55,017 nt of DNA from Sphingobacteriales bacterium. GTDB taxonomy: Bacteria; Bacteroidota; Bacteroidia; UKL13-3. A program made the translations under genes and the position numbers. Below the pieces are notes generated by a model, which did not search any database, was not told the DNA's origin, and saw only the letters and a list, made by a program, of their open reading frames with translations. Shown piece after piece: positions 1-6,646 of the stretch (its first letter is position 1; each line of letters starts with the position of its first letter). Where the stretch lies: NCBI GenBank assembly GCA_021298155.1, contig JAJTEN010000016.1, positions 1-55,017 on the forward strand, written 5' to 3'.

Positions 1-91
1 TGTTGTAATCTGTCAGTTGTTCAAGTTGTCTTTTTTGTTTGCAGTTAGCAAAAAGAAGGCAGATTGAAATTAGAAGTAGAATGTTTTTCAT
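1..91 (-). CDS. Small lipoprotein of cassette 4 (N-terminal 30 residues only, cut by window edge)
   Basis: An ATG at 91-89 opens a reading frame that runs off the window after 30 codons. It begins MKNILLLISICLLFANCKQK, a short lysine-containing start, a hydrophobic stretch and a lipobox-like FANC with Cys at residue 17, so the product should be an exported lipoprotein. The ATG lies only 15 nt after the recombination-type box at 98-106, as in other cassettes here and in integron cassettes generally. Function cannot be told from 30 residues. It is too short for a usual ORF cut-off. Confidence 0.7.
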   Translation of the reverse strand, partial: MKNILLLISICLLFANCKQKRQLEQLTDYN

Positions 92-97
92 AAAATT

Positions 98-235
98 ACG
101 CATAACGTTTTGCACATTTGCGATGGGCGTGCGTTTGAACTCAAATGTAGCTTAGGGAAACGAATATTCCAACCACGAAAATCCCGTCAAACGGAGACGA
201 ATTGCACGCCTATTGCAAATGTGCTGTTATAGGGC
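98..235 (-). repeat. attC-like imperfect palindrome A (closes cassette 3)
   Basis: Plus-strand arms 112-132 and 204-224 pair over 21 positions with two G-T wobbles. Outside them lie the boxes ACGCATAAC (98-106) and GTTATAGGGC (226-235). Between box and stem there are five bases (GTTTT, 107-111) on one side and a single T (225) on the other. On the minus strand the first box GCCCTATAAC is the complement of the start of cassette 3 (box at 945-954); the last box GTTATGCGT belongs to cassette 4. The stop of the upstream lipoprotein gene is 7 nt away. Confidence 0.75.
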
Positions 236-241
236 GTTTTT

Positions 242-922
242 CTAGTCATGGTCAAATAGTTCTACTAATTTATTTTGATTCTTTGAAAAGCCGATTATCG
301 AAGCTCCTTCGTCACAATCGAAACAAGGAATGTCAATTAGTTGGATAGTTGTGTCTTTATAATACTCGTTTAAAAAGTCGTTGTCATTTATGTCACCGCC
401 AAATTCTTTTAATTCTTCAAATTTGGTTTTATCTAAAAAATTGAATGCTTCAAAAAAACTGTCAACTTCCTTTTTAAAATAAGTTTCATACTGTTTTGGA
501 GTAATTGATTTTGCGTAATTATCTAAATAATCTTCGTATTCATTTTGTCCAATATTTTTTGGAATGGTTTGCGGGTCGTAAATCCATTTTACAAAATAAT
601 ACGTGTCAAATGATTGAGAGTAAATTAGTTTGTTGTCACCAGTAATTATTTGCAATAAAGATTTTGAATTTTTAACCATTCCTGGTTCTATTGTCAATAG
701 AAATAAGTCCTTAGTTTGCGAATTAGAAAAAAAGTAATAAGCGGATTTCTTTATCGTGTCAGCGATAGAAAGTTTTAAGTTTTCTGTCCTGTCATAGTAA
801 ACCTTTTCTGTTGTTAACTCCAATGAGTCTTTGTTACTAGTGCTAGTTTTTTTTTCAGTCCTTGAGTCACAAGATTGAAAGGTCGTCAAAATTGATAATG
901 CTAAAATTAGATATATTTTCAT
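242..922 (-). CDS. Cassette 3: hypothetical lipoprotein, 226 aa
   Basis: The protein starts MKIYLILALSILTTFQSCDS: a signal peptide with a lipobox-like FQSC, Cys at residue 18, predicting a lipid-anchored envelope protein. The mature part is Asp, Lys and Tyr rich without a family I recognise; near the C-terminus is a CFDC motif (residues about 199-202). The ATG at 922 is 32 nt from the cassette boundary and the stop 7 nt from palindrome A, so the gene fills the cassette. Five of its last six Asp codons are GAC, whereas core genes of the window mostly use GAT, which suits foreign origin. No function is assigned. Confidence 0.8.
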   Translation of the reverse strand: MKIYLILALSILTTFQSCDSRTEKKTSTSNKDSLELTTEKVYYDRTENLKLSIADTIKKSAYYFFSNSQTKDLFLLTIEPGMVKNSKSLLQIITGDNKLIYSQSFDTYYFVKWIYDPQTIPKNIGQNEYEDYLDNYAKSITPKQYETYFKKEVDSFFEAFNFLDKTKFEELKEFGGDINDNDFLNEYYKDTTIQLIDIPCFDCDEGASIIGFSKNQNKLVELFDHD

Positions 923-944
923 TGTTAATGTCTGTCTCTAAAAT

Positions 945-1083
945 GCCCTATAACGTTTTGGTGCCTTGCGCAGTTGCCGCATAAGGAGGCGTCAACATGA
1001 AGCAAGATAAAAACATTCTGGGCAAAAACAAAATAGCCAATTAGAACTAAGTCGGCAATTGCGCAAGACACCTGTTATAGGGC
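945..1083 (-). repeat. attC-like imperfect palindrome B (closes cassette 2)
   Basis: The outer boxes GCCCTATAAC (945-954) and GTTATAGGGC (1074-1083) are perfect complements. Inside, 960-979 pairs with 1053-1072 at 18 of 20 positions. The spacer is GTTTT (955-959) on one side and one T (1073) on the other, the same 5/1 asymmetry as in palindromes A and C. The central 73 nt (980-1052) shows no long pairing and would be the apical loop or variable region. The length, 139 bp, is close to A and C and to long chromosomal attC sites. Confidence 0.78.
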
Positions 1084-1093
1084 GTTTTTCTTT

Positions 1094-1636
1094 TCATTTG
1101 TCTGCTTTTGTTGTGTCACGTCTTACAAAAATTTTCTTTCTAAAATTATATCCTTCCATTGCGTCAAGTGGATTAAAGTCACCAGAAAGCCACATTCCAC
1201 CAAAGTCAATTGTCAAATGGTCACAGGAAATGCTATCAATGTAGTATGTTCTCTTGTATCCTTTAATTTCCAATTGCAATTCATTGTTTAATTGTCTAAG
1301 TAGTCCGCTGAATTGATAAGTCAAAGAGTCGCCACTATTTAAAAAATACTTCTGATAGTCGTGTCTCTTGTTTTTAGGATTTTCAACGTCATACTTTATA
1401 AATTGGTCGTTGCATTTAAAGTCAAGATTGAAAAAAACAGATTTTTGAACTGTATCGTCAATTGTAAATTTCATTTCATTCAAACTGTCATTGCGTAAAA
1501 TAAGTCTGAAGTCAAAAGGTTTGTTTACAACAATTGTATCTTGTATGTCAATAATTTTGGTAACGGAATAAAAGTCGTCTTGTCTAATGCAACTTGATAA
1601 AAAGATTATTGTCAATATGTAAATTAGTTGTCTCAA
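1094..1636 (-). CDS. Cassette 2: hypothetical lipoprotein, 180 aa, TTG start
   Basis: The frame begins at a TTG (1636-1634) giving MRQLIYILTIIFLSSCIRQD, a convincing signal peptide with lipobox LSSC (Cys 16). No in-frame ATG precedes it before the cassette boundary at 1662, so the TTG start is the best choice. The mature part has beta-rich character, with an NDSLNEMKFTIDDTVQKSVFFNLDF-like stretch shortened here, and no recognised domain. The stop is 11 nt from palindrome B. Like the gene of cassette 3 it is a single-gene cassette for an exported protein; the function is unknown. Confidence 0.75.
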   Translation of the reverse strand: MRQLIYILTIIFLSSCIRQDDFYSVTKIIDIQDTIVVNKPFDFRLILRNDSLNEMKFTIDDTVQKSVFFNLDFKCNDQFIKYDVENPKNKRHDYQKYFLNSGDSLTYQFSGLLRQLNNELQLEIKGYKRTYYIDSISCDHLTIDFGGMWLSGDFNPLDAMEGYNFRKKIFVRRDTTKADK

Positions 1637-1652
1637 TGTCGTCTTTTAAAAT

Positions 1653-1793
1653 GCCCTATAACGGTTTGCGGCTTTGCGTTCGGGCGGGATTTTTATTACT
1701 AAACTCGATACGAAGAACCTAGGTTCAAATATAGCAAAAAGCGTCAAACGAAGCACCTAACCCCGCCTGACGCAAAACCGCTGTTAGCGGTAC
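1653..1793 (-). repeat. attC-like imperfect palindrome C (closes cassette 1)
   Basis: Boxes are GCCCTATAAC (1653-1662) and GTTAGCGGTAC (1783-1793). Arms 1668-1689 and 1761-1781 pair through GCGG, TTTGCG and GGCGGG blocks with a mismatch and a one-base bulge, features that orient attC folding in known integrons. The spacer is GGTTT (1663-1667) against a single T (1782). The two outer boxes are not complements of each other: GTTAGCGGT instead matches the box at 3779-3787 at the far end of cassette 1, as expected if R'' records the start of its own cassette. Confidence 0.75.
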
Positions 1794-1821
1794 GTTGCTT
1801 TTCTTTTAGTGATAGGTTTTG

Positions 1822-2601
1822 TTACTTCGATGCCATAACTTTTGCAGCCATATTTAAACGTAGTTTGCTTGATGGAGTGATACTAGAAAAGAATGCCAAA
1901 ATTCTATTTTTAAAACCCGGAATCACATGCAGCTTTCCTTTCATCATACCCTTGAAGCCTACTTCTGCAACTTCTTTAGCTGACATTACACCACTGTCAT
2001 AAAGTTTAGCATTATTCATATCCGCTCGTTCCATAAACTCTGTTTTTGTAGCACCTGGCGACAAAACTGTTGCAGTAACGCCAGTCTTCTCAAACTCTTT
2101 ATGAATCGCCTCTGTCAAACTTATTACATAAGCTTTTGATGCACCATAAACCGCAAAATAAGGGTCAGGTTGTATGCCTGCGGTAGAGGCTACATTTAAA
2201 ATTTTTCCTTTACCGTTTTTAATCATTTGTTTCGCATAGTAATAGGTCAGTTCTGTTAAGCTAAATACATTTAAACCTAACATTTCGGAATATTTTTCCA
2301 TGCTACGTTCCGTAAAAAAACCATAGTCACCAAAACCTGCGTTATTCACTAAATAAGTTACAGAAAGGTTATTGGATTTAACACAATTATCAATATCAAC
2401 AAGTCCATCACTTATTGATAAATCTGTTGCAACGCAATAAACATTAATTTTGAATTGTTGCTCAATTTCCAATTTAATGTCATTTAATTTTTGCTTGTTT
2501 CTTGCAACAATTAATACATCAATTTTTCGTTTGGCAAATAATAAGGCTATTTCATAACCAATGCCACCCGATGCACCAGTTATTATTGCTACTTCTTTCA
2601 T
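1822..2601 (-). CDS. Short-chain dehydrogenase/reductase (SDR), 259 aa
   Basis: A classical SDR with the Rossmann glycine motif TGASGGIG (residues 8-15), NNAG (86-89), catalytic Asn 111, Ser 139, Tyr 152 and Lys 156 (YGASK). A basic Arg 34 after beta-2 suggests NADP(H) preference. It resembles the DltE/YqjQ-like cytosolic SDR group; the substrate cannot be deduced. It is the last gene of the three-gene cassette 1: DUF2141 ends 2 nt upstream, so the two are probably co-transcribed, with the Crp-like regulator first. The stop is 29 nt from palindrome C. Confidence 0.9.
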   Translation of the reverse strand: MKEVAIITGASGGIGYEIALLFAKRKIDVLIVARNKQKLNDIKLEIEQQFKINVYCVATDLSISDGLVDIDNCVKSNNLSVTYLVNNAGFGDYGFFTERSMEKYSEMLGLNVFSLTELTYYYAKQMIKNGKGKILNVASTAGIQPDPYFAVYGASKAYVISLTEAIHKEFEKTGVTATVLSPGATKTEFMERADMNNAKLYDSGVMSAKEVAEVGFKGMMKGKLHVIPGFKNRILAFFSSITPSSKLRLNMAAKVMASK

Positions 2602-2603
2602 AA

Positions 2604-3044
2604 TTAGTCAATGAGTTTGATTGTTAAAGAATTATTTTGTTGCGTAAACGAAAACTTACAATCGGAAAAATCAGGGCTTGAAAGTGTTGGTTTATAATTA
2701 TTTGAAAATCCAAAAGGTTCATTTGGATATCCAAAGAAATTTTTGTCAAGTTTGCCATTTCCGTTTAAATCATGGGAAACCGCAATGGCATAATCTCCAT
2801 ACGGAACATCAAACTCAACTGTTGTTTCTTTTGTTGTAGTATTAATTTTTAGGTTTTTCCAAAATTTACTAAACTCTGGAAACTCATCGCTGGATCGGTA
2901 AATTCCTACATAAAGCGTTTTGCCTTTGTTTTGAATATTAGTAATTTTCACTTTTAATTTTTGAGTATTCACATTTTGTTGTCCGCGAACCCCAAAGGCT
3001 ATAAGTAGCCCAAATACGATTGATAAAATTTTGAACTTTTGCAT
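2604..3044 (-). CDS. DUF2141 family secreted protein, 146 aa
   Basis: The signal peptide is residues 1-21 (hydrophobic core ILSIVFGLLIAFGV, cleavage near GQQ). The mature domain has the DUF2141 pattern: VKITNIQNKGKTLYVGIYRS, then VPYGDYAIAVSHDLNGNGKLDKNFFG and PNEPFGFSNN. The DLNGNGKLD segment looks like an Asp-rich metal-binding loop. DUF2141 proteins are small periplasmic or outer-surface proteins of unknown role, common in Bacteroidota and Proteobacteria. It sits between the Crp regulator (86 nt) and the SDR (2 nt) inside cassette 1. Confidence 0.85.
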   Translation of the reverse strand: MQKFKILSIVFGLLIAFGVRGQQNVNTQKLKVKITNIQNKGKTLYVGIYRSSDEFPEFSKFWKNLKINTTTKETTVEFDVPYGDYAIAVSHDLNGNGKLDKNFFGYPNEPFGFSNNYKPTLSSPDFSDCKFSFTQQNNSLTIKLID

Positions 3045-3129
3045 TTTTTAGTTTTTAAATTGTTGAACAATTATGCAAAAGTGGACAGAATGAAAAGCAC
3101 ATTCATTCACATTTGTGAAGAAATGAATT

Positions 3130-3726
3130 TTATGACTTTATTATTTCCTTTCTCAACCTGCTTAGGCTTTGTGGAGCTACACCCAAATAAGAGGCTATGA
3201 GATAGTGTTGAAATTTGTTTAGTAAATAGGGTTCTTCTTTTAAAAGTTGTAAATATCTTTCCTTCGCATTAAGGGTTAAAAGTGTAAATGCTCTTTTATG
3301 AACATTCTGATAGGCAGTTCCCGACATTTTACTGGCAACCTTCTCGAGAACGAGGGAGTTTGATGTTAGTTTTTGAATGCTGTCGTAACTTAGCATTACA
3401 ACTTCTATATCTTCAAGTGCTTGAAAAGACAAAAATGTAGGCGTTTGTGTAAGGAAGCTATTATAATCAACCAAAAAATAATTTTCAAATTTTGATTCGG
3501 TGTCATTAAAATGGAAATTCCAAGTAAAGTCTTGTCCTTCATGATTTATAAAGAATGACCTTGCTTTGCCAGAAATAACAAATAGAATATTTTTGCAGAT
3601 ACTACCTTCTTGGAGAATCTTGTCGCCAGCCTTGAACTTTTTATATGTCAGCTCGTTTTCTAACAAATCAATATCATGGTCAGAAAGCAAAACGAAACGT
3701 AATATGAAATTTACAAAAGGGTTCAT
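3130..3726 (-). CDS. Crp/Fnr family transcriptional regulator, 198 aa
   Basis: Residues about 20-115 form a cyclic-nucleotide-binding beta-roll (FKAGDKILQEGSICKNILFVISG); the C-terminus is a helix-turn-helix (YLIASYLGVAPQSLSRLRKEI, about 175-195), here quoted at the 20-residue limit as YLIASYLGVAPQSLSRLRKE. It is of the short Bacteroidota Crp/Fnr type, which often lacks clear cAMP-binding residues, so the ligand is unknown. As first gene of cassette 1 it may control the DUF2141 and SDR genes behind it. The start codon lies 61 nt after the attI-like junction, further than in the other cassettes, leaving room for its own leader. Confidence 0.88.
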   Translation of the reverse strand: MNPFVNFILRFVLLSDHDIDLLENELTYKKFKAGDKILQEGSICKNILFVISGKARSFFINHEGQDFTWNFHFNDTESKFENYFLVDYNSFLTQTPTFLSFQALEDIEVVMLSYDSIQKLTSNSLVLEKVASKMSGTAYQNVHKRAFTLLTLNAKERYLQLLKEEPYLLNKFQHYLIASYLGVAPQSLSRLRKEIIKS

Positions 3727-3753
3727 TTTTATATTTAGCCGTTAATGTTCGTG

Positions 3754-3838
3754 AACTCAGTGTGGTTGCCTTGCAATGACCGCTAACGTCTTTATATCCG
3801 ATGTCCCATCACTGGTATTAAACAACTCAGGGTGGTGG
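3754..3838 (-). other. attI-like junction between recombinase and first cassette
   Basis: On the minus strand the sequence AAGACGTTAGCGGT (3792-3779) carries the same core as the palindromes (AAAAC or AAACC followed by GTTA) but has no matching hairpin arm. Its GTTAGCGGT is the complement of the box that opens palindrome C, so it marks the left boundary of cassette 1. Two direct repeats, AACTCAGTGTGGTTG (3754-3768) and AACTCAGGGTGGTGG (3824-3838), 13 of 15 identical, lie on either side. Known attI sites are non-palindromic and contain integrase-binding direct repeats. Identification as attI is inference. No gene is seen in 3727-3975. Confidence 0.55.
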
Positions 3839-3975
3839 ATATGCGAGTATGTATTTCGGAATATTTATTTAGAGAATGAGTTGGTATTTGGGGTGTTTTC
3901 ATGGCTCATAATTATTTGGTTCTGCTAATTTAAGGAATGTGAGATTGATTTGCAAATTTCTTGCTCCTTAACAAT

Positions 3976-5067
3976 CTATAAAGTATCAAATGGAGAAATA
4001 ATGTTCTTTAAATCTCTATTGCTTACATGGGTATAAATTTCTGTAGTTCTGCTGCTTTTATGTCCCAATAACTCTTGTATATACCTGAGGTCGGTGCCAG
4101 CATCTAATAAGTGCGTGGCATAGCTGTGTCTTAACCAATGTAAGGTGGCTGGTTTGTTTATGTTGGCTGTTTTTAACGTCTTTTTTAAAACCAATTGAAA
4201 ACTTCTTTCGTCGTATTTGCTGCCTTTTTTAATTCCTTCAAACAAATATTTAAGGGGTTTGTATGCCATATAATAATTGCGTAATAAGATAATTAATTTT
4301 TCACTAATAGGTACCACTCTGTCTTTTCCGCCTTTGGCGTCTCTTATATACAATAACATCCTGCGCGAATCCACGTCTTTTAATGTTAAATTTAATACTT
4401 CACCACAACGCAACCCACAGGCATACGCTAAACTCAACATGCTTTTGTGTTTAATATTGCGCTCCATATCCAATAGTTTTTTTATTTCTTCTTTGCTTAG
4501 CACATTTGGGTTTTTCTGACTTCTCCTAGGTCTATGTATTTGCGCTATCTCCAAGTTCTTTTTGGTTATCGTAGAGAAATATAATTTTACCGCATTTACT
4601 ACTTGGTTCTGATAAGAGGCAGAGCGTTTATTTTTAATAATATACTCATTGTTAAATAGGATAAAATCTTGTAAGTTTATATCCTCAGGTTTTTTCGGCG
4701 ATAAGAATTTCAAGAATATCAGCAAAGCCTCTTTGTAGCTTTTAACTGTGTTGTTGCGGTATCGCCTCGATTGTAAAAAATAATTAAACTGATTTAAAGC
4801 CTCTGCCACATGAGCAGGTACTTCACTAGATTGCATTAATGCCTCTCTTTCAGAAAAATCAACCTCCTTTAGCGTTGCTGTTGGGTCAAATAGGTTTAGT
4901 TGCATCCTATTGCTGGGAGTGTCTGCCACATGCCAGGCCCTTAACCCCGCACTCCACAATGCGCCATCTATGGCTCTAATTTTTTTGTTTAGTATGGGGT
5001 TATTGGTAAACTCAATCTTAAGGCGCGCGTGGCCTTTGTGTTTAATGGGGGTAATTTTCCAGCTCAT
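3976..5067 (-). CDS. Tyrosine recombinase, IntI/Xer-like with extra N-terminal domain, 363 aa
   Basis: Catalytic residues are all visible: Arg 220 (GLRCGE), Lys 245 or 248 (AKGGKDR), His 310 and Arg 313 (HWLRHSYATH), His 336 (LLGHKSS), Tyr 345 (IYTHV). Residues about 85-180 are the SAM-like core-binding domain. The block KPATLHWLRHSYATHLL and the ending SPFDTL recall integron integrases, but only about 62 residues separate the Lys and His, as in XerD; IntI proteins are about 35 longer there. Residues 1-60 form an additional domain with a WSAGLRAWHV motif seen in Bacteroidota integrases. It is transcribed toward the cassettes and oriented with them. Role inferred: cassette integration and excision. 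Confidence 0.88.
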   Translation of the reverse strand: MSWKITPIKHKGHARLKIEFTNNPILNKKIRAIDGALWSAGLRAWHVADTPSNRMQLNLFDPTATLKEVDFSEREALMQSSEVPAHVAEALNQFNYFLQSRRYRNNTVKSYKEALLIFLKFLSPKKPEDINLQDFILFNNEYIIKNKRSASYQNQVVNAVKLYFSTITKKNLEIAQIHRPRRSQKNPNVLSKEEIKKLLDMERNIKHKSMLSLAYACGLRCGEVLNLTLKDVDSRRMLLYIRDAKGGKDRVVPISEKLIILLRNYYMAYKPLKYLFEGIKKGSKYDERSFQLVLKKTLKTANINKPATLHWLRHSYATHLLDAGTDLRYIQELLGHKSSRTTEIYTHVSNRDLKNIISPFDTL

Positions 5068-5359
5068 AGACTTTTTTCGAGCAATATTAGTGGCTTTAGT
5101 TTATTTCGGTCTGAACCTAAACCCATAACCTATTTCATTTGCGCAAAAATGCCTCAGAAGTATTGCTATTTATGGATAAAGATAAATCAGGTAAGTAGGA
5201 TAAATTTTTCTTCTTCCCTTTTTTGGTATTTGGTTCAGGTCTACTGTTACTATGTAATTTTTAATACAATAAAATTTAACCCATGAGTATGCAATTCTAT
5301 GCATCATACCTGCCCTCTCCTTAGGGCTTTTAAGAGGCCTGAAAAATGCTTTTTAGCCA
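5068..5359. other. Gene-free stretch between the recombinase start and the GT-C gene end
   Basis: No coding frame is convincing here. It holds the upstream region of the recombinase on the minus strand and the 3' side of the membrane protein gene. A small hairpin GCCCT-CTCCTT-AGGGC (5312-5327) followed by four T could be a weak terminator on the plus strand, but no plus-strand gene ends there. The stretch marks the edge between the accessory cassette region and core genes. Confidence 0.5.
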
Positions 5360-6646
5360 TTACTTAGTTGGTGAGCTCAGGAAGTTCCAAAAAATTTGTG
5401 CGTCTGATTTTGCAAGGTCAACAGGCCAACAAGAATCATAGGTATAAATGTATTTTAAATTAAATAAGATGCCTGCAAACAGAAATAACATAGTTAAGTT
5501 TCTAATATAATTGTTGTTTTTGTTGAGCAGTTGCTTAATGGCCATAGCAAGGGGAAGAGATAAAAAGGGATAGATATCTACAAATCCTCTATGCCCATAT
5601 GAACACCCTAATTTGTAGGCCCACCATGAGGCATAAATGTATGCGCAACTTATGAGAATACACAACAGTAAAAGGGCCGTTTTCTTTTGCGTTTTAAACA
5701 CATAAATAAATCCTAAACTACTTAACACAAAAATAGGGTTGGTGCTAAGCCATCCATTTTCAAAACCAAGTATTACCTCTCTCCATTTTGGATTTAGCCA
5801 ATAGGTAAAACCCTCATTTTGGTAGCTGTAAGTAAATGGTGTTTGGGTTAAGTAAACATTGTATATTATTTGAGGTGAAAGTATGCTTATTGACATTCCA
5901 ATTGCCTTGAGCCAATTTAATAATCCTTTGCCAAAAAGTAGGGTATGAAAGGAAGAAAATAAACCCAGTGAAAGTAAAATAAAGACCACATTTATTTGGC
6001 GAACCAAAATAATACAAGCCGCAATAGCAAATAGGCTAAGCCAATAGTTATTATTTTTAGTTTCTTCAAATTTTTTCAAATAATATAACCAAGCAGAAAA
6101 GAGGAAAAAGGTATATACATGTGAATATCCGCTTTCAAAAATTGCGTAATAATAGAGGTTGCTACCCAAGAAAATACTGGCTAAACTAAGCCATACCACT
6201 TTTTGATGGCAATAATAAAGGAGAAACTGATGTAGAAAATATAAACCCAGCAGCAAATAAAATACGCCCGCAAAATCAATGGCATTTTGATAAGGCATAC
6301 TAAAGCCATCGGATACTTGATGGCTTAAAACAGCATAGCCATGGGCTATTACAAAAAACGGGGAAATGAATACGGCTACACCAACAGGATATTTTGATTG
6401 AATCTTATTGTTTGATGGGTCTAAATAAAATCCGTAACCTGTGAGTGAATCAGTTTTATGGGGGAATTTACTGCTGTTAAAATCATATAAAAATAAAGCT
6501 GGTAAGTAGACATAATACCCCGCTTTATCAGACATAATTTGACTGCTGTAATGAAAGGGTTTCGAGCGAGAATGTCTATTTAAGGCAGCAAAAACACATA
6601 TACTGAATAAAAATACCCATATGAAGTAATTTTTTTTGTTCTGCAT
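5360..6646 (-). CDS. Polytopic membrane protein, GT-C glycosyltransferase-like, 428 aa
   Basis: About ten hydrophobic segments are visible from the first (IWVFLFSICVFAAL) to the last (LTMLFLFAGILFNLKYIYTY). A long extracytoplasmic loop follows the first segment with MSDKAGYYVYLPALFLYDF and KYPVGVAVFISPF, a layout typical of Bacteroidota GT-C fold (dolichyl-phosphate-mannose transferase-like) proteins, where an acidic residue in the first loop is catalytic; Asp 40 would be the candidate. Substrate unknown. It follows the HlyD gene by 34 nt on the same strand and may be co-transcribed. The enzymatic assignment is inference from fold pattern. Confidence 0.6.
   Translation of the reverse strand: MQNKKNYFIWVFLFSICVFAALNRHSRSKPFHYSSQIMSDKAGYYVYLPALFLYDFNSSKFPHKTDSLTGYGFYLDPSNNKIQSKYPVGVAVFISPFFVIAHGYAVLSHQVSDGFSMPYQNAIDFAGVFYLLLGLYFLHQFLLYYCHQKVVWLSLASIFLGSNLYYYAIFESGYSHVYTFFLFSAWLYYLKKFEETKNNNYWLSLFAIAACIILVRQINVVFILLSLGLFSSFHTLLFGKGLLNWLKAIGMSISILSPQIIYNVYLTQTPFTYSYQNEGFTYWLNPKWREVILGFENGWLSTNPIFVLSSLGFIYVFKTQKKTALLLLCILISCAYIYASWWAYKLGCSYGHRGFVDIYPFLSLPLAMAIKQLLNKNNNYIRNLTMLFLFAGILFNLKYIYTYDSCWPVDLAKSDAQIFWNFLSSPTK

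Follow-up and report, generated by a model that had tools for sequence, protein, structure and literature searches.

A putative integron-like cassette array beside a tyrosine recombinase without the I2 helix in a Bacteroidia genome

Genes and sites at the recombinase locus

The stretch analysed here (the window) is the whole of contig JAJTEN010000016.1 (C26; 55,017 nucleotides) from the 2.5 Mb genome of a Sphingobacteriales bacterium of the class Bacteroidia, and its left end carries a candidate integron-like system. In minus-strand order, a tyrosine recombinase gene (5067-3976) is followed by a junction at position 3787, three cassettes and a partial fourth. An initial annotation had described three imperfect palindromes separating minus-strand cassettes, with a recombinase of IntI-like C-terminus at the head of the array, and had proposed an undescribed integron-like lineage. 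The palindromes were recovered at 95-237, 943-1085 and 1651-1794 (143-144 bp including the R-box flanks), and the cassette boundaries given (106-953, 954-1661 and 1662-3786) proved exact when GTT is divided between G and TT. Sites were scored with a covariance model (R1) built from an alignment of 38 sites (A1); the scores of the window sites (92-109 bits) are not independent, because all three belong to the training set of R1. The features are as follows.

3976-5067, minus strand: tyrosine recombinase, 363 amino acids, integron-like family without I2 (Pfam, NCBIfam, tree)
4873-5067, minus strand: extra N-terminal domain of the recombinase, about residues 1-65, possibly HARP-like (AlphaFold model, PDB profile, Foldseek)
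3788-3835, minus strand: putative attI, left side of the junction, ending in GGATATAAAGAC directly before GTT (first-cassette start compared with its own R''; family attI motif)
1662-3786, minus strand: cassette 1, three genes (open reading frames and Pfam; bounded by attI and the site at 1651-1794)
3130-3726: cassette 1 gene, CRP-like regulator (Pfam)
2604-3044: cassette 1 gene, DUF2141 protein (Pfam)
1822-2601: cassette 1 gene, short-chain dehydrogenase (Pfam)
1651-1794, minus strand: attC-like site 1, end of cassette 1 (R1, 109 bits; in alignment A1)
954-1661, minus strand: cassette 2, single open reading frame (1094-1636), no known family in Pfam or NCBIfam
943-1085, minus strand: attC-like site 2, end of cassette 2 (R1, 98 bits)
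106-953, minus strand: cassette 3, single open reading frame (242-922), no known family
95-237, minus strand: attC-like site 3, end of cassette 3 (R1, 92 bits)
1-105, minus strand: start of cassette 4, beginning GTTATGCGTAAT after site 3, cut by the contig end

Cassette 4 is incomplete because the window is the entire contig. The window palindromes exceed chance expectation: at a stem score of 12 the palindrome scanner returned these three and no others in the 55-kb window, against about 14 when the full 364 kb of loci were shuffled, and their hairpin z-scores on the plus strand ranged from -2.3 to -5.1. An Rfam search of window positions 1-6000 gave chance matches only. A further site and a truncated site were observed at the end of another contig of the same genome (G000:C35:106014-107096), and these probably belong to the same array as the window.

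Cassettes, attI and attC-like sites

Each site in an integron array is a mosaic, its left end (R'') deriving from the preceding cassette and its right end (R') from the following one. A cassette that was once circular is therefore expected to begin with a sequence complementary to its own R'', without such a match to the R'' with which it shares a site. Across 36 cassettes from related loci, the start and end of one and the same cassette agreed on average at 6.92 of 9 variable positions, compared with 3.68/9 between the two halves of a single site and 3.48/9 for random pairs, and the own-end mean was never reached in 20,000 permutations. Both internal window cassettes gave an own-end match of 8/9 (the start of cassette 2, GTTATAGGGCAT, complements its own R'', ACGCCCTATAAC, to that extent). 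With a median length of 1054 bp the cassettes are compact; 91 of 96 open reading frames run in the array direction, and a typical reading frame begins about 38 nt after GTT and stops about 6 nt ahead of attC. An exact copy of the final 40 nt of site 2 lies at the end of contig C35 of this genome, where a different cassette begins directly after GTTA. The units thus have the appearance of circular cassettes with one attC each, in the same orientation.

The attI position was located by searching behind the recombinase gene for the first-cassette start predicted from that cassette's own R''. A distance of 70-105 nt separates the recombinase stop codon from the start of the first cassette at most loci, where a family motif of TATAA(A/G)nnA is followed directly by GTTA, so that a putative attI adjoins the integrase gene; in the window the first-cassette start (GTTAGCGGTCAT) complements its own R'' (CGTACCGCTAAC) at 6/9 positions. 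The comparison of cassette content between strains, proposed in the initial annotation, was made for two pairs of related isolates. The Tenacibaculum larymnensis and T. gallaicum sequences are 99.3% identical over 1435 bp and those of Cecembia rubra and C. lonarensis 96.5% identical over 1212 bp; both alignments end at attI, after which different cassettes follow. Contigs frequently break off near attI, coming to an end within 1 kb of the recombinase gene in 18/34 cases on the 3' side and in 1/27 on the 5' side, which indirectly fits repeats or mixed cassettes behind attI.

The initial annotation had named as refuting a finding of scattered repeats unrelated to cassettes or recombinase, with the gene blocks fixed in all related genomes, and this was not borne out: the cassette 3 gene, for one, was found in only 1 of 59 relatives (G003, 48%). 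No R1 site was found in the stretch of G003 examined around this hit; the result shows a patchy occurrence of the gene and does not extend to its transfer as a cassette. Taken together, the circular-cassette signature, the fixed attI and the fact that sister isolates carry different cassettes after a shared attI support the identification of the window blocks as integron-type cassettes. The majority of cassette proteins (alignment A4, 86 proteins) had no strong family; PADLOC matches among them were to components of Zorya and to genes of type II restriction-modification systems. Homologous cassettes with 75% DNA identity over 1178 bp were also observed at two loci (L066 in G055 and L073 in G035) whose genomes belong to two different families.

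Within the 38 aligned sites only AACA and CGTT were invariant. Stem covariation was 0.622, against about 0.10 when slid, and was reached in 0 of 500 shuffles; together with the folding results, this identifies R/L inverted repeats that can fold as a hairpin. No bulged extrahelical bases were found in the L stem, which was continuous, although the 38 sites had been collected with a scanner biased towards well-paired stems without bulges. In 31/38 sites, stem position 14 has an A opposite a C, equivalent to a T-G wobble in the bottom strand; of the two strands, the bottom one folded better in 30/38 sites (p 2e-5). The spacer is unequal (1 nt on one side, about 5 nt on the other) and site length rather uniform, at about 132 bp. 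In a post hoc search, the Bacteroidota-type -7 motif TAnnTTTG occurred in the loops of 8/38 sites in the cassette direction and of 1 on the other strand (about 2 in shuffles), and a promoter for the following cassette may be present in some sites.

The recombinase family and its distribution

The recombinase has a Phage_integrase catalytic domain (Pfam, 1.4e-38) and an IntI-like C-terminus (SPFDTL), as first described. Its top NCBIfam score was to XerA (210 bits), followed by 200 bits, in two stretches, to the integron integrase model TIGR02249, for which the cut-off is 265. It had also been remarked that the recombinase does not have IntI spacing, and this extends to the family: the interval from KGGKDR to HxLRH is 63-65 amino acids in all 48 aligned members, compared with 105-106 in 15 IntI proteins together with VchIntIA and IntI1, and 71 in the Xer group. 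The additional domain of IntI (about 40 amino acids, the I2 helix) was missing in 48/48 aligned members. In a tree of 83 proteins, which included a small sample of other tyrosine recombinases, the family and IntI grouped together (100/97), apart from XerC/D and XerA; canonical IntI formed its own clade (100/100), as did the core of the recombinase family (99/98). A single clade for the whole family was neither rejected nor required by the approximately unbiased (AU) test (p-AU 0.33). The best Foldseek match to the whole AlphaFold model was the VchIntIA-attC structure 2A3V (E 1.3e-16). These comparisons support a distinct lineage that appears to group with IntI, yet is uniformly without the additional domain.

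Members of the family carry an N-terminal extension, typically of 70-125 amino acids, the first 65 of which are predicted to fold as beta-beta-alpha-beta-beta-alpha (AlphaFold model, predicted local distance difference test 84.8) with a motif of the WSxxxKxWHxP type. The first match in a PDB profile search was the SMARCAL1 HARP structure 4O66 (E 0.12), which also took ranks 1 and 2 in Foldseek (E 1.5); a finer aligner (VIA) gave a Z of only 3.1, and Pfam PF07443 reached 0.0047 at best, with 13-17 bits under a cut-off of 25. The domain is perhaps HARP-like, which we treat as a lead only.

Relatives were searched for such palindromes beside a homologous recombinase, and the sites lay in oriented arrays downstream of the recombinase (41 of 42). 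A survey of 149 Bacteroidia genomes (thresholds of 1e-40 for the recombinase and 1e-6 for R1 sites) found the recombinase in 84 and sites in 109, with both in 81 genomes, the recombinase only in 3, sites only in 28 and neither in 37. At a strict recombinase threshold of 1e-60 in 60 relatives, sites and recombinase appeared unlinked; lower thresholds revealed diverged or fragmentary copies beside arrays. Recombinase fragments adjoining arrays were seen, and in the genomes with sites only, the recombinase may have diverged, been lost or escaped assembly. At four loci of diverged members with 36-47% identity (L173, L174, L175 and L179, in G497, G522, G076 and G070 respectively), the array lies on the 5' side of the gene, on the opposite strand. 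L049:1-8697 departs from the other loci in that its sites, in the same orientation as a C-terminal recombinase fragment, are placed upstream of it.

Canonical IntI exceeded the model cut-off in 105 of the 395 genomes sampled from the phylum Bacteroidota, nearly all outside Bacteroidia, with one Bacteroidia genome (G127) among the matches listed. TIGR02249 used as a query against 60 Bacteroidia genomes at 1e-60 gave no match, which is unsurprising for a model derived from proteins that carry I2. In a genome of another class (G097), four sites of the present type were observed at L172:2832-5513 with a canonical IntI about 4 kb away, and no family recombinase was found in that stretch.

Proposed mechanism and comparison with known systems

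The locus is read here as an integron-like cassette-capture platform, with a probability of roughly 85%. Cassette units, the position of attI, exchange at GTT, turnover between related genomes and co-occurrence with the recombinase can all be read from the sequences; the neighbouring recombinase would perform the exchange, and its substrate would be the folded bottom strand of attC. In the proposed mechanism, the recombinase would recombine attC-like hairpin sites with the attI just behind its own gene. Circular cassettes, usually of one gene and one attC, would be inserted at attI, so that the array would extend at its far side from the recombinase, and cassettes would be read in the same direction as the recombinase gene. 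In canonical sites, extrahelical bases set the choice of strand (PMC2727003) and are docked by I2 (PMC7790495). Since I2 docks these bases in IntI and both are missing here, the two absences suggest one linked difference, in which enzyme and sites may recognise each other in another way. The A-C stem position, the unequal spacer and perhaps the HARP-like domain could take over strand choice and hairpin recognition. The fuller reading, of a sister lineage of the integron integrases that is widespread in Bacteroidia and recombines folded attC without I2, relying on a wobble-coded bottom strand and a structure-specific N-terminal domain, is put forward tentatively, at slightly less than even odds.

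Several observations weigh against this interpretation. The activity of the recombinase is deduced from its sequence, and I2 is held to have enabled single-strand attC recombination (PMC7790495). Rare bulged sites were possibly missed by the scanner, and the resemblance to HARP is below significance. The strong association of recombinase and sites (Fisher p 6e-14) was computed ignoring the relatedness of the genomes; 28 of the 65 genomes without a detected recombinase still carry sites, and many sites are scattered, some of them isolated, away from the recombinase. The window attI is exceptional, lying 189 nt behind the stop codon with C instead of A before GTT, and the divergent layout of the four diverged members is the typical canonical-integron arrangement. 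Both parts of the reading first proposed, integron-type cassettes and a distinct recombinase lineage, are supported, with two qualifications: the scattering of sites and an activity deduced from sequence.

It is unlikely, though it deserves consideration, that the cassettes are real and the neighbouring recombinase uses the palindromes as double-stranded sites in a Xer-like manner, not as folded single strands. The lack of both I2 helix and extrahelical bulges would agree with this, as would the use of double-stranded sites by other simple tyrosine recombinases and the slightly higher score of XerA over the integron model; however, covariation preserves the stem even though its sequence is free to change, something that a double-stranded site would not require. 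The fixation of AACA and CGTT only, and the bottom-strand folding bias, also speak for a folded substrate. Mobilisation in trans by XerC/XerD or a canonical IntI, with the neighbouring recombinase incidental or a remnant, could account for sites in genomes without a recombinase and for neighbours that are fragments. We consider it improbable, given that arrays begin at a fixed spot behind the recombinase gene, that 81 of the 84 genomes with a recombinase have sites, and that canonical IntI was found in 0 of 60 sampled Bacteroidia and once among the matches listed for the phylum sample.

A canonical integron whose integrase merely scores under tool cut-offs is very improbable. The TIGR02249 match and the grouping of family and IntI in the tree, where a single family clade is neither rejected nor required, are in its favour, but the additional domain is absent from every aligned member, and true IntI loci of sister classes have sites of a different appearance, several lying on the other side and, with the exception of L172, matching R1 weakly. 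The chance that the palindromes are dispersed repeats (REP-like or terminator-like) unlinked to cassettes is practically negligible: some sites are isolated in their genomes, but the cassette signature contradicts this view, as do attI, the oriented arrays, the isolate pairs and the co-occurrence with the recombinase.

An earlier description of the system was sought in open-access papers and none was found; with preprints and most of the subscription literature outside the search, priority is not established. In the report on IntegronFinder 2.0, the Salinibacter integron is the sole complete case in Bacteroidetes proper, where integrons are described as rare (PMC9024848). If the lineage is active, searches based on IntI would be expected to overlook a cassette platform present in over half of the sampled Bacteroidia genomes. 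The cassettes, largely of unknown function and including defence genes, form a reservoir worth reading. Integrons have been modelled as arising by acquisition of the I2 helix (PMC7790495), and a natural system with cassettes but without I2 makes that model testable. Should the sister-lineage reading be true, integrons would be older, or more than once adapted, than this scenario holds, and the system may show a second way to do the integron job without a protein part until now considered essential.

XerA, of archaea and bacteria, and XerC/XerD resemble the family as simple tyrosine recombinases without the additional domain, and XerA gave the top NCBIfam score, but they are separate in the tree, unlinked to cassette arrays and distinct in the KGGKDR-HxLRH interval. 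In reverse integrons (Treponema and some other phyla), integrase and cassettes are read in the same direction, as here, but the integrase is a canonical IntI with the additional domain. For the 'integron-like' subgroup of tyrosine recombinases, the parts consulted of Smyshlyaev et al. 2021 (PMC8138268) tie the insertion to integron function and describe no cassette arrays for members without it. With canonical integrons (IntI1, VchIntIA; TIGR02249) the Bacteroidia system shares an integrase beside attI, a co-oriented cassette array, R/L hairpin sites, exchange at GTT, an integrase C-terminal SPxDxL and the closest fold, 2A3V. It differs in having no additional domain or I2 helix and an extra N-terminal domain, in sites without extrahelical bulges, with a spacer of 1 versus about 5 nt and a rather uniform length, and in an array that usually lies 3' of the integrase gene. 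We keep it apart from canonical integrons because two of their defining features, an I2-bearing integrase and bulged extrahelical bases, were looked for and neither was found; by its cassettes, attI and turnover, the system nevertheless appears to work like an integron, and it is the activity of the enzyme and the single-strand route that we infer.

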